Shown here: one piece after another, positions 31,979-43,774 of the stretch | Layout: each line of letters starts with the position of its first letter | Position numbering within the stretch: the first letter of the stretch is position 1 | Source: Acinetobacter sp. WCHA55 | GTDB taxonomy: Bacteria > Pseudomonadota > Gammaproteobacteria > Pseudomonadales > Moraxellaceae | Direction of reading: 5' to 3' | Assembly: GCF_002165305.2 (NCBI RefSeq) | Contig: NZ_CP032286.1 | Span: 744,001-808,000 of the forward strand | DNA: 64,000 bases | Notes under the pieces: model-generated | The model's database searches: none | What the model was told of the DNA's origin: nothing | The model's input: the letters and a program-made list of their open reading frames with translations, nothing else | Position numbers and translations under genes: made by a program

Positions 31979-32002
31979 TTTTTAAAAACGGTTTGTTTTA
32001 AC

Positions 32003-32034
32003 AAAAAAGCCTCCATCAATTGGGGGCTTTTTTT
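32003..32034 (+). terminator. Rho-independent terminator of the nuo operon
   Basis: AAAAAAGCCTCC arm, ATCAAT loop, TGGGGGCTTTTTTT arm and T run, 25 bp past nuoN. Confidence 0.9.
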
Positions 32035-32059
32035 GTTTTTATCGCACGATAAAAAGCTT

Positions 32060-32065
32060 TATAAT
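32060..32065 (+). promoter_or_regulatory. -10 element before upp
   Basis: Perfect TATAAT about 37 bp before the GTG start of upp. The -35 region is T-rich and weak (overlapping the T run of the nuo terminator), so only the -10 is assigned. Confidence 0.5.
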
Positions 32066-32101
32066 GTAAGGAATTTTATTTTACCTTTTAGGTGCTCTCC
32101 C

Positions 32102-32737
32102 GTGGCTATCCATGAAATTCGTCATCCGCTGATTCGTCATAAGCTTGGTCTTCTTCGTCGTGCTGATATCAGCACGAAAAACTTCCGTGAGCTGGCTCAA
32201 GAAGTGACCATGCTTTTGACCTATGAAGCAACCAAAGATTTACCTGTTTGCGACCATGAAATTGATGGTTGGAATGGTAAAGTAACGGTGGACCGTATTG
32301 TGGGTAAAAAAATTACAGTTGTGCCTATTTTACGTGCGGGTATCGGCATGTTAGATGGTTTCTTAAACCTGATTCCAAGTGCCAAAGTGTCTGTACTGGG
32401 TTTGGAACGTGATGAAGAAACGCTTGAAGCACGTACTTATTACAAAAAATTAGTGCCAGATGTACAAAACCGTTTAGCGATGATCATCGACCCAATGCTT
32501 GCAACGGGTTCTTCATTGGTTGCTGCGATTGATGTATTGAAAGCAAGTGGCTGTAAAGACATTCGTGTGATGGTGTTGGTTGCAGCGCCTGAAGGCATTA
32601 AGCGTGTTTTGGATGCGCACCCAGATGTTACTATTTTCACAGCTTCAATTGACCAAGGCCTAAATGCCAATGGCTATATCGTGCCGGGTTTGGGCGATGC
32701 GGGCGACAAAATCTTTGGTTCAGTTCAAAAAGATTAA
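32102..32737 (+). CDS. upp: Uracil phosphoribosyltransferase
   Basis: Salvages uracil to UMP with PRPP. The 211-residue protein shows the PRPP-binding loop [20 protein letters not shown] and family motifs [27 protein letters not shown] and [17 protein letters not shown] place the start at the GTG at 32102 (then [15 protein letters not shown]), with AGG about 10 nt before it, because this matches the family N-terminus. The frame extends further upstream only through the promoter and terminator region. Single-gene unit between two terminators. Confidence 0.95.
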
Positions 32738-32751
32738 GATTTAGCCCCAGT

Positions 32752-32779
32752 AAAAAGAGGCTTTTATAGCCTCTTTTTT
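32752..32779 (+). terminator. Rho-independent terminator of upp
   Basis: AAAAAGAGGC-TTTTATA-GCCTCTTTTTT stem and T run shortly after the stop. Confidence 0.88.
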
Positions 32780-32818
32780 ATATACTAAAACAAAGCGTGT
32801 ACATATTAGGATCTGTTT

Positions 32819-33112
32819 ATGAAGGCCGAGCAATATCAAGGAAAAGTGAAGCAATATAACGCTGACAAAGGTTTTGGCTTTATTTCCTCACCTGAAGGCG
32901 ACGTATTTTTCCATATTTCGGATTTTCCTGCAGACTCAGGTGAACCGAAACGCAACGAACGCGTGAAGTTTAATGTGGTTGAAAATGGCGATCGTTATAA
33001 AGCCATTAAAATTGAGCGAGTTGAAGACAATTCTGCCAAAGCCAAGAAATCGAAAGTCTCAAGTCATAATAAATCGATTACCACAGATTTATTGTCTAAT
33101 TTTAGACGCTAA
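32819..33112 (+). CDS. Cold-shock-domain protein, 97 residues
   Basis: A CspA-type nucleic-acid-binding domain fills residues 1-65, with RNP1 KGFGFISSPEG and RNP2 VFFHISDF both present. A short basic tail follows (KAKKSKVSSHNKSITTDLLS), unlike the 67-70-residue single-domain Csp proteins. It probably binds single-stranded RNA or DNA. It is followed by a longer paralogue with the same N-terminal domain, from which it is separated by two tandem terminator hairpins, so the two are transcribed separately. Confidence 0.9.
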   Translation: MKAEQYQGKVKQYNADKGFGFISSPEGDVFFHISDFPADSGEPKRNERVKFNVVENGDRYKAIKIERVEDNSAKAKKSKVSSHNKSITTDLLSNFRR

Positions 33113-33139
33113 TTCAGCGTTGATTCAGATTTTAATTGT

Positions 33140-33192
33140 GCAAAGATTAATCTTTGCTTTTTGAACTAAAGAGGCTGTTTTGCCTCTTTTTT
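33140..33192 (+). terminator. Two tandem terminator hairpins
   Basis: GCAAAGA-TTAA-TCTTTGC followed by TTTTTG (33140-33162), then AAAGAGGC-TGTTTT-GCCTCTTTTTT (33168-33192). Both lie between the two cold-shock-domain genes. Confidence 0.85.
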
Positions 33193-33233
33193 ATTGATTA
33201 CAATACGAAAAATACTGTTGAATAGAGCAGATT

Positions 33234-33965
33234 ATGTTTCTGAAAGGAAAAATCAAAAGCTTTAGTACCTCCCGTGGTTTTGGTTTCATTGAGGTGGAAG
33301 GGGATATTGATGATGTGTTTTTTCATATCAAAGATTTGCCACAGAACAACATTGAACCCAAGATTGGTGAAGCGCTTCAGTTTATGATTGTAGAAGACCA
33401 AGGCAAATTTAAGGCTGGAAATATCCAGAGGCTCGGTCTGTCCTCAGAAAGCAAAAAAACAGTATCCTCAAATAAGAAAAAAGTGCGTAGCCAAGCCTCG
33501 CCACGTTACCAAGAGGCAGGGCATAAAACTACCCTCATCACCGTGATTGGCATCATTATCGTCGCGGTATTGGGCTTTTTAACCTATGGGAAATATCAAA
33601 GTTATAGTGCAGAAAAGCAGCGTAAAGCTGAGCAGTTGATGCTCGAGCAACAACAGATTGTAGAAGAACAACGTAAAGCTTTAGGTCAGTTACCTGATCA
33701 GGTGCTTACAGAGCAAGGTAAACAAAACTTAGATGCTGAACTACATCAAACCAATCAACCTCGCTCAGAACGTGTGACACAGAGCATTGATAAACAAAAT
33801 GGTCGTTTACCTGTCAGCACAGGAAAGTTCAAATGCGATGGACGAACCCATTGCTCCCAAATGCGTTCCTATGAAGAAGCACTTTACTTCTTAAGGAACT
33901 GTCCAAATACCAAAATGGATGGGAACAATGATGGTGAGCCGTGTGAGCGCCAATTTGGGAAATAA
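33234..33965 (+). CDS. Cold-shock domain, membrane segment and Excalibur domain fusion
   Basis: This 243-residue protein has three parts. Residues 1-66 are a cold-shock domain (RNP1 RGFGFIEVEG, RNP2 DVFFHIKDL). Residues about 100-119 form one membrane segment (TLITVIGIIIVAVLGFLTYG), followed by a charged helix likely to coil (AEKQRKAEQLMLEQQQIVEE). Residues about 199-238 are an Excalibur calcium-binding domain (FKCDGRTHCSQM then DGNNDGEPCE, an EF-hand-like DxNxDGxxCE). The expected topology puts the nucleic-acid-binding part in the cytoplasm and the Excalibur part in the periplasm. Related two-part proteins are known in gammaproteobacteria, but the job is unknown. Confidence 0.9.
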   Translation: MFLKGKIKSFSTSRGFGFIEVEGDIDDVFFHIKDLPQNNIEPKIGEALQFMIVEDQGKFKAGNIQRLGLSSESKKTVSSNKKKVRSQASPRYQEAGHKTTLITVIGIIIVAVLGFLTYGKYQSYSAEKQRKAEQLMLEQQQIVEEQRKALGQLPDQVLTEQGKQNLDAELHQTNQPRSERVTQSIDKQNGRLPVSTGKFKCDGRTHCSQMRSYEEALYFLRNCPNTKMDGNNDGEPCERQFGK

Positions 33966-33990
33966 AAAAAGCACCCGAGGGTGCTTTTTG
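33964..33990. terminator. Bidirectional terminator
   Basis: AAAAAAAGCACCC-GA-GGGTGCTTTTT between convergent genes. It serves the cold-shock fusion (plus) and the LysR gene (minus). Confidence 0.9.
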
Positions 33991-33995
33991 CTGAG

Positions 33996-34874
33996 TTATT
34001 TTTCGCAAAACTTCATAAAAGCTTTCAGTCCTGGGCCTTGGTACTTCTGACGGTGTACCAACATGAACAGTGGACGGGTGAGAGACCAAAACGGTGTATC
34101 AAGCACCACCAACTGGCCTTTTTCGCGCAAAGGTTCAGTTGCCAGTTTTGAAATGCATGACATCCCTAAACCACCCGCCACGATTTTTAAAATCGCTTCA
34201 TTATGACCCAAGGTCAGACGTATATTGGCATCAGGCAAGTCTTTTAAAATAGCATTATCAAATACTTCACGGGTACCTGAACCTTCTTCACGCAAGATCC
34301 ACTCGACGGATTTAAAGTCTTCAGGCGTTAGTGTGCGATTTAATTGCGCTAAAGGGTGATCTGGTGCACAGCAGACGGCCAATTCATCGTCACGCCAGTG
34401 AATACACTGGAGCTGTGGTAAGTGACAAGAGCCTTCAATCAAGGCCAAATCTAGTTGGAATTGATTCACTGCTTCAATCATTTGGCGGGTGTTACCAACT
34501 TGTAGCTGTAAATGGGCTTGAGGTTGAATTTGTAAAAAGTCAGCCATCAGGTCAGGCATGAGGTAGTCACTGATGGTCAGGGTTGCACCTAAACGTAAAT
34601 CAATGCTTTGTAACTCACCTTTAGCAGCTTGCTCGAAAGCATCACAGCGACCCAAAATTTCTAAAGCTTGTGGCAGCAGGAAACGCCCCAGATCATTGAG
34701 TTGAAGACGCTTACCTAGACGGTCAAATAAAGGTGCCCCCAAACCGTCTTCTAGATCTGCTAAAGCCATACTCGCAGCACTCTGGGTGAGTCGAACCGCA
34801 TCACTGGCTTTGGTTACTGTGCCTTCTTGAGCAACTGCTACAAAAACCGCCAACTGGCGTAAAGTCATGCGCAT
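33996..34874 (-). CDS. LysR-family regulator, FinR-like
   Basis: A 292-residue LysR-type regulator with an N-terminal helix-turn-helix (LRQLAVFVAVAQEGTVTKAS, SAASMALADLEDGLGAPLFD) and a C-terminal effector-binding domain. It is divergent from a ferredoxin-NADP reductase gene with 85 bp between. In pseudomonads this same arrangement is finR and fpr, where FinR switches on the reductase under redox stress. The equivalence is inferred from gene order and general similarity. A dyad between the genes (34885-34905) is a plausible binding site. Confidence 0.85.
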   Translation of the reverse strand: MRMTLRQLAVFVAVAQEGTVTKASDAVRLTQSAASMALADLEDGLGAPLFDRLGKRLQLNDLGRFLLPQALEILGRCDAFEQAAKGELQSIDLRLGATLTISDYLMPDLMADFLQIQPQAHLQLQVGNTRQMIEAVNQFQLDLALIEGSCHLPQLQCIHWRDDELAVCCAPDHPLAQLNRTLTPEDFKSVEWILREEGSGTREVFDNAILKDLPDANIRLTLGHNEAILKIVAGGLGMSCISKLATEPLREKGQLVVLDTPFWSLTRPLFMLVHRQKYQGPGLKAFMKFCEK

Positions 34875-34884
34875 GAATATAGCC

Positions 34885-34905
34885 TTAACATTTAAAAAAT
34901 ATTAA
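34885..34905. promoter_or_regulatory. Candidate LysR-type operator between the regulator and fpr
   Basis: TTAACATTT-AAA-AAATATTAA, a 21-bp dyad with one mismatch between the arms, in the 85-bp gap between the divergent genes. LysR proteins bind such T-N11-A dyads. Position suits control of both promoters. Confidence 0.45.
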
Positions 34906-34959
34906 CAAATTATGTGGTCATGCTAACATGAGCAACGTCTTTGATGCCACGCTGAAATC

Positions 34960-35721
34960 ATGTCAATTGAAAAATTTAGCCTAGAAAAGGTTTTATCCGT
35001 ACACCGTTGGACCAATACACTTTTTAGCTTCACCATGACGCGACCTGCACATTTTAAGTTTACCGCAGGACAGTTTGCCCGTATTGGTATCAAAGTGGGG
35101 GATGAATTGGTGGTTCGTGCGTATTCAGTGGTCTCATCACCCTTTGATGAAACTTTAGAGTTTTTTTCGATTGTGGTGCCAGAAGGTGCATTCACTTCAA
35201 ATTTACAACACTTAAATGTTGATGATGACATCTACCTTGAAAAGATCCCGTACGGCTTTTTGACTTTGGCGCGTTATCAGTTACCGTTACCAAAAGACTT
35301 ATGGTTACTCGGCACAGGGACAGGGCTTGCGCCTTTTATTTCGATGTTACAAGACTTTGAGACGTGGTCGAAGTACGAAAGTATTACACTGGTCTATAGC
35401 GTACGTACAGCTTCTGAACTGGCCTATGCAACACGTATTCAAGAAATTGCAGAGACCTTTGGCGAGGGCCATACAGGCTTTAAATTTGTGCCGATTATTA
35501 CCCGCGATCCGCATGCGTCACTACATGATCGCTTACCTGTACTGATTGGAAATGGTGAGCTTGAAAAAGCAGTCGGTTTGAGTCTGAACCCTGAAACCAG
35601 TCATGTGATGCTGTGCGGTAACCCGCAAATGGTCGAAGACACCAAAGAAGCCCTGAAAGCACGTGGCCTGACCATGAACCGTCGTGGTGAAGGAAATATT
35701 GCGGTTGAAAACTATTGGTAA
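34960..35721 (+). CDS. fpr: Ferredoxin--NADP+ reductase
   Basis: A 253-residue flavoenzyme moving electrons between NADPH and ferredoxin or flavodoxin, important for Fe-S cluster upkeep and oxidative stress. The FAD-binding motif RAYSVVSSP is near residue 50, with the NADP-binding loop LLGTGTGLAPFISML and the pyrimidine-site segment LCGNPQMVEDTKEAL. The C-terminus NIAVENYW is typical of the bacterial subclass I/II Fpr family. It is divergent from the LysR gene and followed by a strong terminator. Confidence 0.95.
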   Translation: MSIEKFSLEKVLSVHRWTNTLFSFTMTRPAHFKFTAGQFARIGIKVGDELVVRAYSVVSSPFDETLEFFSIVVPEGAFTSNLQHLNVDDDIYLEKIPYGFLTLARYQLPLPKDLWLLGTGTGLAPFISMLQDFETWSKYESITLVYSVRTASELAYATRIQEIAETFGEGHTGFKFVPIITRDPHASLHDRLPVLIGNGELEKAVGLSLNPETSHVMLCGNPQMVEDTKEALKARGLTMNRRGEGNIAVENYW

Positions 35722-35737
35722 AGCTATTTCGCTAAAT

Positions 35738-35767
35738 AAAAGGCTCATCGAATGATGGGCTTTTTTT
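35738..35767 (+). terminator. Rho-independent terminator of fpr
   Basis: AAAAGGCTCATC-GAAT-GATGGGCTTTTTTT, about 20 bp after the stop. Confidence 0.88.
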
Positions 35768-35876
35768 ATTTAAAATTGAAATCACTCAGGTTTTAAACTT
35801 GGCTTAAAAAGAGAGATCACTGCTTGTACGCTCAGATCGCGCTATAATTTCTCTTTTGTAGTGGGTTGGATGGGTT

Positions 35877-36899
35877 ATGTCTTCAGCGTTAAAAACGACG
35901 GCTCAACCAGAGGTGAGGCTTAGTCCACAGCAGAAAAAATTAAATCGCTTAATTAACCAGATTGAACAACAAAAACAAGAACTGGCAGCATGGCAAAATG
36001 CGCAAGCCGACATTCAAAATTATACGCGCAGTAAGCTTTTGCCCATTTATAGCGAGTTACACACGGTTTTATTTGAACAGCTTAATACTCTGTGGAATCA
36101 CTTAGCCAGTGATGCCTTTAGCAAAGCTGATTTGGCGCAGATCGACACCAAAATAGCCGTTTTAGCCAAGATGCTAAAAAAATCACAGATGCTAACTTTC
36201 GAGCAAAAAGAACAAGTAGAGAAAATTGATGCTTTCTATATGCAGTATGCAGAGCATGTACGCGCGAAAAAAACCAAAGCAAACTCAATACAAAATCATG
36301 ATCTCGCTGAAACGGTAGAACAAAACGTAGATGTAGACTGGGAAAATGATGAATATGATTCTGCTCAATACGAAGCAGAGCGAGAACGTGCCAAGCAGTT
36401 AAAACAACAAGAAAAACGTGAGCAAGCAGCCAAACTGGCAGCGCAGTCACTGAAAACTGTATATTTAAAAATTACTGCGATGATTCACCCTGACCGCGAA
36501 CCTGATGACGTAAAGAAGTTAGAAAAAACTGAACTTTTGCAGCAGGTCAATGAATCTTATGCAGAGCAGGATTTATTTTATTTACTCAAATTCCAGTTAC
36601 AGCTAGAGACTAATAAAGGATTAAGCACAAAGGCTTTGAGTTCGGAACAAGTCAAGTTTTATCAGTTGTCTTTGGAAGCGCAGAGTCAGAACTTGCAAAG
36701 TCAGTTAGAGGAGATCTTTGCGTCTTTTCACTTGAGCAATCATATCAACACCAAGCAACTCAAAATGAGTGATGTGTATAAGGTGATTGACAAGGATGCT
36801 ACTGAGTTAAAACAGCAGTTGAAGTGGGAAAAGGAACGTTTAAAGCATATGAAAAAGATGAGTGGGGTAGAGATGTTGTTGGGGGGTGGGATGTTGTAA
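35877..36899 (+). CDS. J-domain-like (DnaJ-related) protein
   Basis: A 340-residue, strongly helical and charged protein. The only clear motif is a J-domain-like segment with the essential HPD tripeptide at 204-206 (YLKITAMIHPDREPD), then LLQQVNESYAEQDLFYLLK, which matches helix III of J domains. Upstream lies a long coiled-coil-like stretch with many Q, K and E residues. The sequence between helix II and the HPD is shorter and the J domain sits in the middle of the protein, unlike DnaJ, so it is probably a specialised DnaK partner. Repeats follow directly after the stop. Confidence 0.75.
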   Translation: MSSALKTTAQPEVRLSPQQKKLNRLINQIEQQKQELAAWQNAQADIQNYTRSKLLPIYSELHTVLFEQLNTLWNHLASDAFSKADLAQIDTKIAVLAKMLKKSQMLTFEQKEQVEKIDAFYMQYAEHVRAKKTKANSIQNHDLAETVEQNVDVDWENDEYDSAQYEAERERAKQLKQQEKREQAAKLAAQSLKTVYLKITAMIHPDREPDDVKKLEKTELLQQVNESYAEQDLFYLLKFQLQLETNKGLSTKALSSEQVKFYQLSLEAQSQNLQSQLEEIFASFHLSNHINTKQLKMSDVYKVIDKDATELKQQLKWEKERLKHMKKMSGVEMLLGGGML

Positions 36900-36910
36900 G
36901 CCTTTGAAAG

Positions 36911-37022
36911 CACCTCTCCCTAACCCTCTCCTGAAAGGAGAGGGAACTCCATTGTGAAATTCACATAGGCATGAAATCAAATGATTGCTCCCTCTCCCTC
37001 AGGGAGAGGGCTGGGGTGAGGG
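36911..37022. repeat. REP/BIME-like inverted pair of palindromes
   Basis: Two opposed units: CCCTCTCCT-GAA-AGGAGAGGG (36924-36944) with CACCTCTCCCTAA on its left, and CCCTCTCCCT-C-AGGGAGAGGG (36990-37010) with CTGGGGTGAGGG on its right. The outer parts are inverted copies of one another. About 45 bp separate the hairpins. Similar CTCCC palindromes are found after nrdA at 10158-10186, so this is likely a dispersed intergenic repeat family. It also lies just beyond the end of the Septu-like pair. Confidence 0.75.
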
Positions 37023-37024
37023 TT

Positions 37025-37690
37025 TTAATTTAAAATTTCTGATAAAAATGGATCATTTCTGACATATGTTTTCCAAAAGGCTGAAAATTCATAGCTAGGT
37101 TTTAGCATATTTGAAATTAACTCAATAATTTCATCCTTTCTATTTTCAGTCATTCCATAGAAATCTTTTTTTAATTCAAATCGTAAGATTTGTAATTTAG
37201 CATGATGCTCCATGATTTTATCAACTAGGTATTCATGGCTAATTTGCTGTGGACCATTATTGGAATTGTTATAACATTTCTCTAATAATGAAATTGTTTT
37301 ATTGGTCAGTTCATATAATGGGTTTGTGACAGGCAAAGCATTAGTTATCTGAACTCTTCCACTCGGAGTACTTGGAGCCTCAAGAGCAATTGATGTATCT
37401 ACATTGTGTTGGTCATTACAACAATCTAATAACTCTTTATCTCTATGCCCTTTTATTCCATTGCAATGTGAACAAGAATAATAAAGATTTTCCCATTCAA
37501 TTAATAGTTCTTCACTTTTACCCTCATGAGGTACAAAATGTTCAACATTAACATTACCAAAATAGGCTTGCTCGCACAGATAACATTTTGAAAAAAAATC
37601 TTTTCTTAGTTGTTTCACCACTAATGGATGAGCATAATTTTTGCCTGTCCAATCTTCAGGTTTATCTGATCTTAATACTTTAAACATCAA
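37025..37690 (-). CDS. ptuB: HNH endonuclease, PtuB-like (Septu-like defence)
   Basis: A 221-residue nuclease with an HNH fold: zinc or structural cysteines CYLCEQAYFGNVNVEHFVPH (C36, C39; catalytic H51), then EWENLYYSCSHCNGIKGHRD (N68, C73, C76, N77). This spacing matches the TIGR02646-type HNH proteins found in Septu and some retrons. It overlaps the upstream ATPase gene by 11 bp, so the two are made together. In Septu, the ATPase and HNH protein form a complex that degrades nucleic acid on phage infection. Assignment to that system is by architecture and context; no reverse transcriptase is nearby. Confidence 0.75.
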   Translation of the reverse strand: MMFKVLRSDKPEDWTGKNYAHPLVVKQLRKDFFSKCYLCEQAYFGNVNVEHFVPHEGKSEELLIEWENLYYSCSHCNGIKGHRDKELLDCCNDQHNVDTSIALEAPSTPSGRVQITNALPVTNPLYELTNKTISLLEKCYNNSNNGPQQISHEYLVDKIMEHHAKLQILRFELKKDFYGMTENRKDEIIELISNMLKPSYEFSAFWKTYVRNDPFLSEILN

Positions 37691-39137
37691 GATCTCCCAG
37701 TTCTTGATTATCTAACAAATGATTTAATGCTTTGAAGTAAAAAGATTTAGACTCAAAATCAAGCTGTTTTGCAAAAGGAGTAATATTTCTTAAAATATTC
37801 CTAAGTTTTTCATAATTATTTGGTTCATTGTTTATAATTTTAGCTATTTCTTCAATTTCTGATTTTAGCTGTTCAGATTGTATTTCTACATGGAATAATC
37901 CTTTGATAACAGATTCATAAGAATAACGGCTTAAATCATCTCTAATTAGTTCATTAGTAGTTAGATCAAAAACAACTGTCTTCGTATTTTGTGAAGTTAT
38001 TACGAAAGGTGAATGTGTACTCACAATAAATTGAATTTTAGGAAAAGCTTTAATTAAGAATGGAAGTACTTTCTTTTGTAGAGAAATATGTAAATGAACA
38101 TCAATTTCATCAATAAGGGCTATACCTGCTAAATCTTCAGGTGCTAAGTTTTGCATTTGTGCGCGCATTAATAAATTAGCATAAATGTTAAAAATTGCTT
38201 TAAATCCAGAAGATAAATCATCCAAAGAGAACAACCTTGAATCTTGCTTAATTAGAACTCGATTGCCATTTGCAGTGAAAATTAGTTCAGTTGTAGTATT
38301 TTCTAAAATCCATTTTAAATCAGATTCCACTTTTATAAACCATTTTTCAATTTCATTGATTTTCTTTATCTTTGGACTTTTATTTTTTCTATGCTTAAGT
38401 AGTGATAAAAGCTCTAATTTTTGAAGCAATAAATAAGCTTCAAGGGCGCCCTCAATATTTGTAAATGATCCAGAGTCTAAAAATTCATCATAAGTTTTAA
38501 ATTGATCAAGAGAAAAGTCTTTTCGTTCAACACGAGAAGAATCAAAAAAATAAATAGAATCTTTATTTAAGTTATATAAAATAACTTCTACTGTTTTTTT
38601 ATTTGCAATATATAAATCAATCATTTTTGTTAGATTTTTGATGTAGTTTTCAATGTGTTCTGATGCGTAATAATAGAATTCTTTTTGGTTCTGATTTTTG
38701 TTTTTTGAGTCAATATTTACAATTAATTTATTATTTGATGGGTGTTTTATATTTTTTGAACTTTTTTCAAGAAAAGTGATTTTGTTTTTATTAAATATGT
38801 TGAATTTATGGTTTAACTGTCTCTTGAAATTTATTAATTCTTTTGAGAAAGTATCTTCTAAATGATATAAATCATTTTTTAAAATAAACTTTAGATGTCC
38901 ATTTTCATGCTCTGTAAATTCTAATGAAGGATGGAAATTTATAATGCCGAAATTAATTTCTGAAATTATTTTATTCCTTAAGTCTTTATTATTATAATGA
39001 ATATTTCCTTTTAAATTATTTGCTAAATCATTAAGAAACCTAGTTTTACCAGCTCCATTATTTCCTGTAATAATTAGGTTTTTACCTTCTAAAAGAAGGA
39101 CTTGTGCATTAAATATAATAGTAAGAATTGAAGACAT
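37680..39137 (-). CDS. ptuA: AAA/ABC-type ATPase, PtuA-like (Septu-like defence)
   Basis: A 485-residue SMC/OLD-like ATPase. Walker A GNNGAGKT is at 25-32 with a long, variable middle part (helical, rich in K, N, I). A signature-like LSSGFKAIFNIY is at 308-319, Walker B IALIDEID at 339-346 and the switch histidine in IVSTHSPFVITS at 371-382. It precedes an HNH nuclease with an 11-bp overlap, the order of PtuA and PtuB in Septu. The two genes are much more AT-rich than the flanks and sit between the valS terminator and a REP repeat, signs of acquisition. The ATG lies about 10 nt past the terminator and has no evident ribosome-binding site. Confidence 0.75.
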   Translation of the reverse strand: MSSILTIIFNAQVLLLEGKNLIITGNNGAGKTRFLNDLANNLKGNIHYNNKDLRNKIISEINFGIINFHPSLEFTEHENGHLKFILKNDLYHLEDTFSKELINFKRQLNHKFNIFNKNKITFLEKSSKNIKHPSNNKLIVNIDSKNKNQNQKEFYYYASEHIENYIKNLTKMIDLYIANKKTVEVILYNLNKDSIYFFDSSRVERKDFSLDQFKTYDEFLDSGSFTNIEGALEAYLLLQKLELLSLLKHRKNKSPKIKKINEIEKWFIKVESDLKWILENTTTELIFTANGNRVLIKQDSRLFSLDDLSSGFKAIFNIYANLLMRAQMQNLAPEDLAGIALIDEIDVHLHISLQKKVLPFLIKAFPKIQFIVSTHSPFVITSQNTKTVVFDLTTNELIRDDLSRYSYESVIKGLFHVEIQSEQLKSEIEEIAKIINNEPNNYEKLRNILRNITPFAKQLDFESKSFYFKALNHLLDNQELGDLDV

Positions 39138-39147
39138 TATTAAAAAT

Positions 39148-39171
39148 AAAGGGCTGAATAATCAGCCCTTT
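39148..39171 (-). terminator. Rho-independent terminator of valS
   Basis: AAAGGGCTGA-ATAA-TCAGCCCTTT, with a T run on the minus strand. It lies directly upstream of the ptuA-like ATG, so read-through or a promoter inside this short gap must supply the defence genes. Confidence 0.85.
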
Positions 39172-39202
39172 ATACTACGAAATTGGTTGAACTAACAACA
39201 CT

Positions 39203-42097
39203 TTAAAGCGCTGCAATCTGCTCCATATTCGCTTTAATCTTCACTAACTGATCAGCAAACTCAGCCAATTTCACTTTTTCACCTTCAACCACAGCCGCAG
39301 GTGCTTTCGCTACAAAACCTTCATTGCCCAGTTTAGTCGCAATTTGGTCATGCTGCTTTTGAACCTTGTCTAAGTCTTTCTGTAAGCGCCCCAATTCTGC
39401 TTTAGGGTCAATTAAACCTTTCATTGGAACGAATACAGAGGCATGGCCTACAACAGAAGAAGAAGACAATGGCGGTTGCTCACCATCAGCTAAGAACGTG
39501 ATGCTTTCCACTTTTGCCAAGGCTTTAAATAACGCCTCAATACGTGTGATCTGCGCTTTTTCAGCATCAGTCGTGTTTTGTAGAAGCACTGGTAATAAGC
39601 GAGCATTACCTAGACCCATCTCACCACGAATGTTACGTACCGCACCAATCAAACCTTGAAGCCATTGCATATCTGCTTCAGCCTGTTCGTTTACACGTTC
39701 AGGGTTGGCAACAGGGTATTTCGCCAACATAATAGTTTCGCCAGAAATACCGAGTTTCGGTGCAAGCGTCTGCCAAATTTCTTCAGTCAAATACGGCATG
39801 ATTGGGTGTGCCAGACGTAAAGATGCTTCCATCACCGCAAGAAGTACACGACGAACTTCAGCTTTACGCTCAACCGATACGTTTTCATCGTTCAGAACAG
39901 GTTTAGTCAGTTCGACGTACCAGTCACAGTATTCATTCCAAATGAACTCGTAAATCGCTTGTGCAGCCAAGTCTAAACGGTAAGTTGCGAAAGCTTGTTG
40001 TACCGCAGCTTCGGCTTTTTGCAAACGGCTTACGATCCATTGTTCAGGCAATTCCCAAAGGTCTTGACGAACTTCAGTACCAATCACTTGCTCTTCACAG
40101 TTCATCATTACGAAACGGGTTGCGTTCCAGATTTTGTTGGCAAAGTTACGGTAACCTTCAACACGTTTCATATCGAACTTAATGTCACGACCCGTGTTTG
40201 CAAGTGCACAGAACGTGAAACGAACTGCGTCAGTACCGTAAGCTTGAATACCTTCTGGGAATTCTTTACGGGTTGATTTTTCAATCTTCGCCGCTTGTTT
40301 CGGGTTCATTAGACCCGTAGTACGTTTTTGTACTAAAGTCTCAAGGTCTACACCGTCAATCAAGTCAAGAGGGTCAAGTACGTTACCCTTAGACTTCGAC
40401 ATTTTTTGACCCTCACCATCACGGACTAAACCGTGTACATACACCGTTTTAAACGGTACTTGTGGTGTACCATCTTCATTTTTCATGAAGTGCATCGTAA
40501 ACATAATCATACGAGCAACCCAGAAGAAGATGATGTCAAAACCAGTCACCAATACATCTGTTGGGTGGAAAGTATTGAGGAAATAGTTTTCCGCATCTTT
40601 CTTGGCATCGCCAGTCCAGCCTAAAGTTGAGAACGTCCACAGCGCAGAAGAGAACCACGTATCCAATACGTCTTCATCTTGGCTAAGCGCAACATCAGCA
40701 GGGATGTTGTTTTTGGCACGGACTTCCGCTTCGTCACGACCGACATAGATATTACCTTCAGCATCGTACCAAGCGGGGATACGGTGACCCCACCAAAGTT
40801 GACGAGAGATACACCAGTCTTGGATGTTGTTCATCCACGCCATGTACATATTGCTGTACTGCTCAGGAACAAACTTGATACGACCGTCTTGAACCGCTTC
40901 AATGGCAGGTTGAGCCAATGGTGCAATTTTCACATACCATTGATCGGTCAATAACGGCTCAACAATCACGCCTGAACGGTCACCGCGAGGTGGTTTCAAT
41001 GTGTACGGTTGGATTTGATCTAACCAACCTTCAGCTTCGGCTTGTTCAACCAGTTTTTTGCGTGCTTCAAAACGCTCTAAACCAACGTATTCTGCAGGTG
41101 CAGCGATGGTTTTAGAAATTTGCTCGCCCGCTTTGGCGATGTATTCAAACTCAGCCAACACTTCCGCATTTTTGTTGAAGATATTGATGATTGGTAATTC
41201 ACAACGCTTACCGACTTCATAGTCGTTAAAGTCATGAGCAGGCGTTATTTTCACACAGCCTGTACCGAATTCTTTGTCGACATATTCATCTTTAACGATA
41301 GGAACAGCACGACCTGTGATCGGTAGAATGATGTTTTGACCGACAAGATGCGTATAGCGTTCATCATCGAGCGCCACTGCAACTGCTGTATCGCCCAGTA
41401 ATGTTTCAGGACGTGTGGTTGCAACTACAATGTGGTCTTTACCATCGTGTGTACGCAGTGATTTATCTTCAAAGAAGTATTTGAAGTGCCACAATGAACC
41501 TGCTTCTTCTTTATCTGACTCAACTTCTAAGTCAGAAAGCGCCGTTTGAAGTTTTGGATCCCAGTTCACCAAACGTTTGCCACGGTAAATCAAACCGTCT
41601 TCGTGCAGTTTAACGAACACTTCTTTTACGGCATTCGACAAACCTTCATCCATGGTGAAGCGTTCACGCGACCAGTCGACTGAAGAACCTAAGCGACGAA
41701 TCTGACGGGTGATGGTGTCGCCTGATTGCTCTTTCCATTCCCAGATTTTTTCGATGAATTTTTCACGGCCGAGGTCATGACGGCTTACACCTTGAGCGCC
41801 CAACTGACGTTCAACCACCATTTGCGTTGCAATACCCGCATGGTCTGTACCCGGCTGCCATAAGGTATTTTTACCTGACATGCGGTTGTAGCGAGTTAAC
41901 GCATCCATAATGGCATTGTTAAAACCATGACCCATGTGCAAGCTACCGGTGACGTTTGGTGGCGGAATCATGATACAAAATGACTCACCTTTTTCAGAGG
42001 GTTTGAAATAACCACGCTCTTCCCAAGTTTGGTACCATTTTTTCTCGATCTCGGTCGGATCGTAAGTTGTAGCAATATTTTGCGCTGAATCAGTCAT
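39203..42097 (-). CDS. valS: Valine--tRNA ligase
   Basis: A 964-residue class I aminoacyl-tRNA synthetase that charges tRNA-Val. The HIGH-type motif is in [18 protein letters not shown] near the N-terminus and the KMSKS motif in [17 protein letters not shown]. The large editing domain lies between them ([19 protein letters not shown]). The C-terminus is the coiled-coil arm typical of ValRS ([20 protein letters not shown]). The ATG at 42097 starts [20 protein letters not shown]. Single-gene unit with its own terminator. Confidence 0.97.
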
Positions 42098-42280
42098 AGT
42101 TCAAACAGTTCAAAAGTAGATAAAAAATTGCATCTATTGTAGCAAAGAAATCGTAAATGGGGGCATGTAAAGCAAATGCGTTGATCTAGCAATTGCGACA
42201 TGAAGCAGAGCGCTTTATGATGTGCTTACACCTAGAGTGCGCATTGTTCGCAGTAAAAATCAAAAAAAGGGGGGATCACG

Positions 42281-42955
42281 ATGACTTATCAAATATCATT
42301 AAAATTAAAACCTGAAACTCACCAACGTTTTGCCCACATTCATCAACAGCTTAATGCCGGTGAAAGCCAAAGTCTTGCCAAACCTTTGGGCGAAGTTTTA
42401 GCGGATATTTCATGTGAAGTGATTGATCAAGTCTTTGGCGATCTTGCACGATTGTCTACCTCTGGTGATGGGGAGTCTGAGAAAATTATTCAGCACATTG
42501 TGGATACGATGCGTAAGTACATGCCGTGGTCCGTGTCTTTTTTTTCAAATGACCGTTTAATTCCAATGGTGAGTTATCTAGAGAAAATGATGTATGACAG
42601 CGAAAATACTCACTTTTTAAGCTATCCGATTGAAAAAACCTTAGTCAATGAACTTTTGGGTTGTGTGGAACAGATGGAGAAAGGCAATAACAGCTATGTT
42701 GCTCCAGCTTTGAAGGTGTTTACTCAAATTGTGGATCAGGGGGTGACCAGTTTGGTGCGTGAACCCAAAAAAATGCTTAAATTTAATCTGGTGGTCGATA
42801 AAACACTGAATGGGGTGATTAACTTGACGACCCAGTTGGGCTATAAACGTTTTGATAAGTTAGGGCGTATCTATGATGCGCAGATGATGAGTCAATATTT
42901 TGATCATTTCCTAACTTTTTTAAATGATCAACCTACAAATAAAACTTCGGTATGA
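42281..42955 (+). CDS. Hypothetical protein, 224 residues
   Basis: Not recognised. A strong GGGGGG ribosome-binding site precedes the ATG. The product is soluble, without signal peptide or membrane segment, and mostly helical (DEVIDQVFGDLA-like helices such as LGEVLADISCEVIDQVFGDL). The sequence PETHQRFAHIHQQLNAGESQ opens the protein. It is followed 12 bp later by a short-chain dehydrogenase gene in the same direction, so they form an operon, but that does not reveal the role. Confidence 0.8.
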   Translation: MTYQISLKLKPETHQRFAHIHQQLNAGESQSLAKPLGEVLADISCEVIDQVFGDLARLSTSGDGESEKIIQHIVDTMRKYMPWSVSFFSNDRLIPMVSYLEKMMYDSENTHFLSYPIEKTLVNELLGCVEQMEKGNNSYVAPALKVFTQIVDQGVTSLVREPKKMLKFNLVVDKTLNGVINLTTQLGYKRFDKLGRIYDAQMMSQYFDHFLTFLNDQPTNKTSV

Positions 42956-42967
42956 GGCAATAAGGAC

Positions 42968-43774
42968 ATGGCACAGTTAGATAATTTAGATGCAAAAGTG
43001 GTGTGGATTACAGGGGCATCTTCAGGGTTAGGTGAAGCACTCGCTAAAGAGTGTGCTTTACAAGGGGCAGAGGTTGTACTCACGGCAAGACGTTTTGACG
43101 AACTCGAAAAAGTTCGTGTCGGACTGCTCAATCCAGATCAACATATTTCCATTTGTGCCGACATTACCGATGAGACGCAGGTGCGTCATGCCTATGAGCA
43201 AGTGCTCCAGAAAAAAGGTCGAATTGATTGGTTGATTAATAATGCGGGTTTAAGCCAACGTGCCTTGATTACTGACACCAGCATGCAGACTGAACGTGCC
43301 ATTATGGAAGTAGATTATTTCTCACAGGTGTTTTTAACCAAAACCGTTCTACCGACATTTTTAGCGCAAAAATCAGGTCGTATTGCCTTTGTTTCGAGTG
43401 TTGCAGGGCTATTGGGGACGCAGTACCGTGCCACCTATTCAGCAGCCAAGGCTGCCATTCATATGTGGGCAAATAGCCTTCGTGCCGAAGTGGCCAATGA
43501 GGGCGTGGATGTATCGGTGATTTTCCCGGGCTTTGTTAAAACCAATGTGTCGTTTAATGCTTTAAATGGTGAGGGTAAACCGCAGGGTCATCAAGACGAA
43601 GCAATTGAAAATGGCTTAGAACCGGATATTTTTGCGCAAACGGTGGTGAGTGCATTGCTTAAAGGTGAAGAATACATCGTAGTTGGCGGTCGTAAAGAGA
43701 AAATGGGGGTTCTGGTGTCTCGTTTATCGCCTAAAACATTGTATAAAATGATTCGTAAGATGAAAGTGAAGTAA
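42968..43774 (+). CDS. Short-chain dehydrogenase/reductase
   Basis: A 268-residue classical SDR oxidoreductase. The NAD(P)-binding motif is VVWITGASSGLGEALAKECA, the structural NNAG is in DWLINNAGLSQRAL, and the catalytic Ser-Tyr-Lys is in FVSSVAGLLGTQYRATYSAAKAAIHMW (written here as motif parts: S in VSSV, Y and K in YSAAK). An arginine after the first strand (LTARRFDE) suggests NADP preference. The substrate is not predictable. AAGGA precedes the ATG, 12 bp after the upstream gene. Confidence 0.93.
   Translation: MAQLDNLDAKVVWITGASSGLGEALAKECALQGAEVVLTARRFDELEKVRVGLLNPDQHISICADITDETQVRHAYEQVLQKKGRIDWLINNAGLSQRALITDTSMQTERAIMEVDYFSQVFLTKTVLPTFLAQKSGRIAFVSSVAGLLGTQYRATYSAAKAAIHMWANSLRAEVANEGVDVSVIFPGFVKTNVSFNALNGEGKPQGHQDEAIENGLEPDIFAQTVVSALLKGEEYIVVGGRKEKMGVLVSRLSPKTLYKMIRKMKVK

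Follow-up and report, generated by a model that had tools for sequence, protein, structure and literature searches.

The window analysed here, 64,000 nt of Acinetobacter sp. WCHA55, holds two overlapping genes in an AT-rich gap beside valS, which raises the question of what this pair is and how it came to occupy this position. The reading that we prefer, at a probability of roughly 85%, makes the pair a retron-free PtuAB, or type I Septu system, in a defence-exchange locus between valS and a gene for an HPD-motif protein, where it would act as an infection-licensed nuclease built from shuffled modules. On the right side, valS (39203–42097, minus strand) has a match in 173 of 175 genomes. On the left side, the HPD-motif gene (35877–36899, plus strand) has a match at E ≤ 1e-10 in 145 of the 175 genomes of the genus. 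An earlier note on this DNA described defence cargo between core genes, which agrees with these flanks and with the PADLOC-type Septu between them. The same note called the left neighbour a J-domain protein; the HPD motif is present in the sequence, but no DnaJ model is among the Pfam hits at E ≤ 1, and the name is thus a motif reading. The insert is bounded, as had been noted, by the rho-independent terminator of valS, a hairpin (39173–39146, minus strand; −18.5 kcal/mol, z −5.8) located directly upstream of ptuA, with 0.9 such sites expected by chance in the stretch. The other proposed boundary, a REP repeat, fared less well. Two imperfect palindromes lie between the left neighbour and ptuB (36900–37027), and a search of the genome with all of this segment finds, besides itself, a single partial match (30 nt, 93%), with the palindrome core found at one other place with 1 mismatch; an abundant repeat is therefore not supported in this genome.

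The two genes are adjacent on the minus strand in the list of open reading frames (ORFs). The ptuA gene (37680–39137) encodes an SMC/OLD-like ABC ATPase of 485 residues, as indicated by its ORF, PADLOC, Pfam and motifs. The ptuB gene (37025–37690) encodes an HNH-type nuclease of 221 residues when read from a TTG codon, as indicated by the PADLOC PtuB1 model and invariant residues. The ORFs 39137–37680 and 37690–37025 overlap by 11 bp in the order PtuA then PtuB, exactly as the earlier note had it. An in-frame ATG at 37687 with GGGAG before it (ATGTTTAA) would give 220 residues and an overlap of 8 bp. This ATG is more likely to be the start than the TTG; among the 40 best relatives, PtuB has 220 residues in 23 and 221 in 11. 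The marked AT-richness is evident from a GC content of 25.2% in ptuA and 30.3% in ptuB versus 42.6% in the whole window (valS, 45.1%; left neighbour, 39.8%). ORFs of at least 60 residues in the gap comprise the two Septu ORFs and one antisense ORF of 79 residues, and no integrase gene is among the listed ORFs of the gap. PtuA carries a Walker A motif (GNNGAGKT, residues 25–32), a signature motif (LSSG, 308–311), a Walker B motif (LIDEID), which was read from the alignment since the pattern search was too strict and missed it, and an H-switch (STHSP). In PtuB, C36, C39, H51, N68, C73, C76 and N77, which include two CxxC pairs, are invariant across 58 sequences.

Both PADLOC Septu models match strongly, PtuA1 (PDLC00268) at 9.1e-107 and PtuB1 (PDLC00331) at 3.1e-71, and PtuA also matches Pfam AAA_21 at 2.5e-13. 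Of the two options that had been left for the pair, a divergent Septu or an unnamed pair, these matches retain the former, as a Septu subfamily listed in PADLOC, and remove the latter. PtuB stays below the cut-offs of Pfam HNH and of NCBIfam TIGR02646. A PtuA profile finds 12 distinct solved sequences at E ≤ 1e-5, named PtuA, retron ATPase or AAA family ATPase, including PtuA 8ee4 (1.8e-20) and those of the retrons Ec83 and Ec78. The best profile stretches on the solved chains stop at residues 380–383, near the H-switch. A single-sequence search, however, aligns chains 22bu and 22et through residue 475, which gives the PtuA tail at least some resemblance to solved PtuAs. The PtuB profile gives eight solved matches at E ≤ 0.01, five of which are PtuB or retron/TIGR02646 HNH chains (1e-4 to 2.4e-4) and a sixth of which is 9n69 (0.0016). 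It matches retron I-A PtuB chains across the HNH core at about 1e-4; a search of the solved structures with the single PtuB sequence returned no retron I-A PtuB chain.

The pair is a natural mosaic, in which the front of PtuA has been exchanged separately from its tail and PtuB. The front, a putative sensor/ATPase module (residues 1–330; 38148–39137, minus strand), follows its own tree and falls into types S1–S11. It is joined through a conserved block (residues 331–415; 37893–38147) that holds Walker B, the H-switch and LSRYSYESVIKGLFHV to a C-terminal tail (residues 416–485 plus stop; 37680–37892), which is largely co-inherited with PtuB. The middle region of the ATPase, noted earlier as unlike that of the classical PtuA, belongs to the exchangeable front. 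Among 11 loci of the genus, the front and the tail plus PtuB form independent groups. In maximum-likelihood analyses of these loci, each of the two parts rejects the tree of the other, the front with a delta lnL of 335 (AU 1e-59) and the tail+PtuB with one of 817 (AU 1e-40). The joint tail+PtuB tree is rejected neither by the tail data (P 0.148) nor by the PtuB data (P 0.32). The agreement of tail and PtuB is good rather than perfect, since the tree of the 70-residue tail alone fails the AU test on PtuB data (5e-6), though not the SH test (0.19), and the PtuB tree marginally fails the AU test on tail data (0.046). Over the 55 pairs of these loci, identities correlate at 0.11 for front and tail, 0.01 for front and PtuB, and 0.67 for tail and PtuB. 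The two halves of the front correlate at 0.45, and those of the left-neighbour protein, taken as a control at 115 loci, at 0.85.

A larger set of 190 PtuAs of at least 395 residues (23 shorter ones were dropped), typed by single linkage at 45% for fronts and 55% for tails, contains 34 front-by-tail combinations, and 9 of the 11 front types pair with two or more tail types. Of 17,578 pairs, 457 have a common front (≥80%) with an unlike tail (≤40%), 79 have a common tail (≥90%) with an unlike front (≤35%), and 300 have both parts at ≥80%. The window's PtuA itself is 93% identical to P0003 in the front and 37% in the tail, and 99% identical to P0044 in the tail and 25% in the front, with one difference across the 85 residues 401–485. 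Collecting the hit lists by similarity to two queries can weaken the apparent front–tail correlation; this bias touches the 11 genus loci less, although they are few, and the existence of the combinations is independent of it. Change points lie at residues 404–426 in front-sharing pairs (5–95%; 415 pairs) and at a median of 342 in tail-sharing pairs (≥85% and ≤35%; 198 pairs), as a joint inside the conserved block would predict; they derive from 17,000 of 17,955 pairs, which are not independent events. The block (331–415) is 62–92% identical in all 55 pairs of the genus loci, and residues 331–412 are 57–93% identical (minimum to 95th percentile) in the 190 PtuAs. Pooled over the 55 pairs, four-fold sites are alike at 43% in residues 331–412, a value between those of the front (35%) and the tail (48%), so the block appears to be conserved by selection. 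Recent homogenisation of the block is not supported by these sites.

Of the 175 Acinetobacter genomes scanned, 15 encode a PtuA relative (E below 1e-30), and a second query, the PtuA of G086, recovers 14 of the same 15 genomes and no others at E ≤ 1e-20. Species with the family carry ptuAB between valS and the left-neighbour gene in 14 of 15 cases (in G126 and G154 the locus is broken up by contig ends). The exception is G076, in which the pair is located beside genes that read as transposases, with neither valS nor the left neighbour within 12 kb. The PtuA of A. indicus CIP 110367 is 75% identical to that of the window. Matches to PtuA are found in 42 plasmid and 8 phage records, none over 80% of the protein, and carriage by a plasmid or phage finds no close copy among these records to support it. 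The pair behaves as the occupant of a fixed exchange locus, because 14 of 15 species share the site and neither an integrase nor a close plasmid or phage copy was found; the acquired insert proposed earlier is refined in this sense. Outside Acinetobacter, 3 of 299 genomes, all from other Moraxellaceae, encode 39–41% relatives of the C-terminal half of PtuA with an adjoining PtuB relative, and their 3.7-kb loci contain no match to valS or the left neighbour.

Comparison of the valS gap across species, one genome each, reveals that the cargo changes between species, and the gap is a genus-wide defence hotspot in Acinetobacter. The sample comprises 116 loci, the window and 115 valS–neighbour gaps from other species; genomes in which the neighbour is missing, far away or on another contig, or in which valS was outside the matches listed, were left out. 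The gap is 1–3 kb long in 83 loci, shorter in 16 and longer in 17 (median 2131 bp), with a GC content of 25–39% (median 31.7%). Its 251 ORFs of about 80 residues or more form 95 clusters, and PADLOC was run on 40 cluster representatives, each standing for all members of its cluster, and the window's two proteins, with 53 clusters outside the scan. On this basis, 54 loci have a cargo cluster whose representative matches PADLOC at 1e-5, in 17 kinds or combinations, some of the matches being weak or to candidate families. The window's Septu family accounts for 12 loci, a second Septu family for 2, and a 5´-nucleotidase type (PDC-S08) for 10. The others include mad2-like cargo (5 loci, one with a retron), retron III (4), OLD, DpdB-like and PifA-like cargo (3 each), DUF4297-HerA, Stk2-like kinase and ThsA-like cargo (2 each), and a CBASS cyclase (1). 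PADLOC-negative cargo alone, insertion sequences included, is found at 29 loci, at least one cluster outside the scan at 24, and no cargo, or none besides a DUF559 gene, at 9. In a small control, one of seven flanking window genes (a cold-shock domain) matches PADLOC. The six species nearest by the left neighbour (86–88% amino acid identity) carry five other cargo sets and none has the window's pair; the left-neighbour identities of L099 and L127 were not used, since a second, related gene was matched there. Cargo can be 94–95% identical where the neighbour gene is 51–61% identical (pairs in clusters c5, c7 and c12, the last a split ORF), which indicates that cassettes move between species. 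At L195 and L196 (G044 and G141) the gap is occupied by genes for a LysR regulator and an MFS transporter, which are not defence genes.

The valS terminator region may double as the promoter of the cargo, a proposal that we regard as somewhat doubtful and for which the support comes from the comparison of loci. The candidate (39169–39198, minus strand) consists of TTGTTA (39198–39193), an 18-nt spacer and TATAAA (39174–39169), and overlaps the hairpin, TATAAA doubling as hairpin stem. Where cargo on the valS strand starts no more than 25 nt from the hairpin, the latter begins at least 27 nt past the valS stop codon in 45 of 46 loci, and in the other loci this offset is found in 23 of 67 (4 of 17 with distant cargo and 19 of 50 with cargo on the opposite strand). 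Counted by cargo cluster, the proportions are 18/19 versus 11/38 (P 2e-6); the 27-nt cut was picked after the data had been seen, and L185 (no hairpin) and two loci without cargo are left out of the count. The extra length fits a TTGTTA-N17/18-TATAAA element directly before or within the hairpin. RNA that starts in the hairpin loop would lack the 5´ arm, and the cargo RNA would thus escape the terminator that stops valS RNA; the predicted folding energy of the leader is 0 kcal/mol when shortened and −18.5 kcal/mol in full. The promoter score of the single site is 5.2 (z 0.7 against shuffles), which is not significant, and a scan for consensus promoters does not list the site because its last −10 base is A. 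Some cargoes on the opposite strand carry the same promoter-like sequence.

In the likely mode of action, PtuA, as an ATP-binding SMC-like ATPase, would restrain the HNH nuclease PtuB and license it upon infection; PtuB would then cut nucleic acid, for which family members differ in targeting tRNA or DNA, and the infection would abort. The anti-phage activity of the pair and its substrate are predictions in this scheme. The front (1–330) would set what is sensed, and the tail (416–485) may be a dock that matches its own PtuB, a role suggested by their co-inheritance. Since the Walker B/H-switch block is conserved, recombination within it may yield working chimeras, by which the locus would shuffle sensors and effectors. 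For whole cassettes, the probable route of exchange is homologous recombination through the flanking core genes. A bolder proposal, to which we give slightly less than an even chance, is a combinatorial immune receptor in which at least nine PtuA fronts are combined with several tail+PtuB packages through one joint at one locus, under a promoter in the terminator region. The packages possibly act on different substrates such as tRNA or DNA. Natural chimeras that share a tail but carry different front alleles, or that share a front but not a tail, would allow trigger and substrate to be told apart with no need for design, and they bear on what the Septu family senses and how PtuA selects PtuB.

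Three other explanations have to be weighed against this reading. The pair might be the effector of a retron I-A whose reverse transcriptase and msDNA have been lost or are borrowed in trans, which would be consistent with the retron I-A PtuAs among the nearest solved relatives and with TIGR02646 ('retron system HNH'), which tops the NCBIfam list for PtuB even though under its cut-off. PtuA nevertheless matches ATPase_I-A of PADLOC at only 4e-23, against 9e-107 for PtuA1, and reaches 77 of the 500 bits needed for the NCBIfam retron PtuA model. RVT_1 has no match anywhere in the genome (a control search gave matches in 3 of 14 genomes), as the earlier note would lead one to expect, and positions 32000–43000 contain no retron RNA at E ≤ 1 in Rfam, whose curated families may not cover every retron. 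The 12 gaps with the window's family likewise contain no further ORF of about 80 residues or more except transposases and one DUF559 gene. Retron membership is ruled out on these grounds, within the curated families of Rfam, and the explanation, scarcely credible by now, is already largely refuted. From the PADLOC scores, the motifs, and the lack of RVT_1 and of a nearby retron RNA, the pair is, in its testable features, a Septu type I system.

The conflict between trees might instead be an artefact of saturated alignments or of chimeric metagenome assemblies. Fronts of unlike type are mostly 23–44% identical, four-fold sites are near saturation (35–48% alike), and many public matches lie on short metagenome contigs. 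Against this, the 11 sequences in the AU tests each come from one species genome, and G137 and G173 are 80–98% identical in most 60-column DNA windows from the start of ptuA to approximately residue 395–415 and mostly about 37–58% over the tail and ptuB. The near-identity of the window's PtuA and P0044 from residue 401 onward, with unlike fronts, points the same way, and an artefact is therefore very improbable. The remaining explanation, that the pair is a degraded or silent remnant that no longer works, draws on relatives at the same locus that are broken by insertion sequences, in ptuA in G055 and G173 and in ptuB in G039 (L116, L117 and L099, respectively). In the window, both frames are open with all catalytic motifs present, and the exchanged parts have been kept intact, as the front shared with P0003 and the tail shared with P0044 demonstrate; a remnant is unlikely.

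The valS hotspot itself may already be known: a 2025 survey by Yi et al. (Commun Biol 8:39), by its title, reportedly concerns Acinetobacter defence hotspots and may include the valS locus. References to it occur in reference lists and one citing passage (PMC12421847, PMC12629846, PMC13141903). Among the matches listed, no title or abstract opening mentions a valS hotspot or module exchange in Septu. The gene pair is ordinary in that its Septu subfamily is already in PADLOC; the mosaic build and the tie to one exchange locus are unusual as far as could be checked. Compared with Septu type I (PtuA 8ee4, EcB88), the pair shares an ABC/SMC-like ATPase, an overlapping HNH gene, Walker and HNH motifs, PADLOC PtuA1/PtuB1 matches and the lack of a reverse transcriptase, and differs in its mosaic build, in its single locus in 14 of 15 species, and in front and tail sequences far from those of solved PtuAs. 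It shares a homologous ATPase head and HNH core with the PtuABs of retron I-A (Ec78/Eco7 and Ec83/Eco4); unlike them, it has neither reverse transcriptase (genome-wide, RVT_1) nor msDNA (Rfam families), and its PtuA has 485 residues versus mostly 542–552 in the solved retron chains. EcB88 is described as cleaving the variable loop of tRNA-Tyr and as depending on Walker A/B and on two HNH-motif residues, H and N (PMC13096335), and the PtuAB of retron-Eco7 as depleting tRNA-Tyr (PMC11555353, which also cites nicked-DNA targeting by the ATCC25922 Septu). A table in PMC12948488 gives a 6:2 PtuA–PtuB complex, and PMC11980606 describes PtuA as a horseshoe-shaped trimer of dimers. Defence cargo is also reported to change between fixed core genes in the P. 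aeruginosa cDHS (PMC10250203) and in E. coli hotspots (PMC10121019). The valS gap differs from these in its flanks, in holding mostly one compact cassette of 1–3 kb (83 of 116 loci), and in the exchange of parts inside one system.

The hotspot also carries cargo that does not match PADLOC, which makes the valS gap a compact source of candidate new defence systems. Candidate unnamed systems include a 696-residue protein, a 941-residue HD-CE+HATPase protein, a protein whose HEPN match falls short of the cut-off, an HHH protein, and a further two that have no Pfam match; the loci are L131:1198–3288, L165:1265–4090, L121:376–1500, L197:1211–2413, L136:348–1643 and L089:364–1476. A small DUF559 gene (Vsr/MTES-like nuclease fold) is present in 51 of the 116 gaps, mostly adjoining the left-neighbour gene (for example, L121:1589–1960), and looks like a resident of the locus; it is absent from the window's gap. 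The 3´ ends of valS at L087–L201 exhibit differing terminator hairpins across species (AAAGGGCTGA.., AATCCCCTC.., ACCCAGAATCTG..), which seemingly change with the cargo. Elsewhere in the window, at 32819–33965, the starts of two adjoining ORFs read as cold-shock domains; in the second (33234–33965), a PADLOC CSD_V match precedes a hydrophobic stretch and a C-terminal extension.
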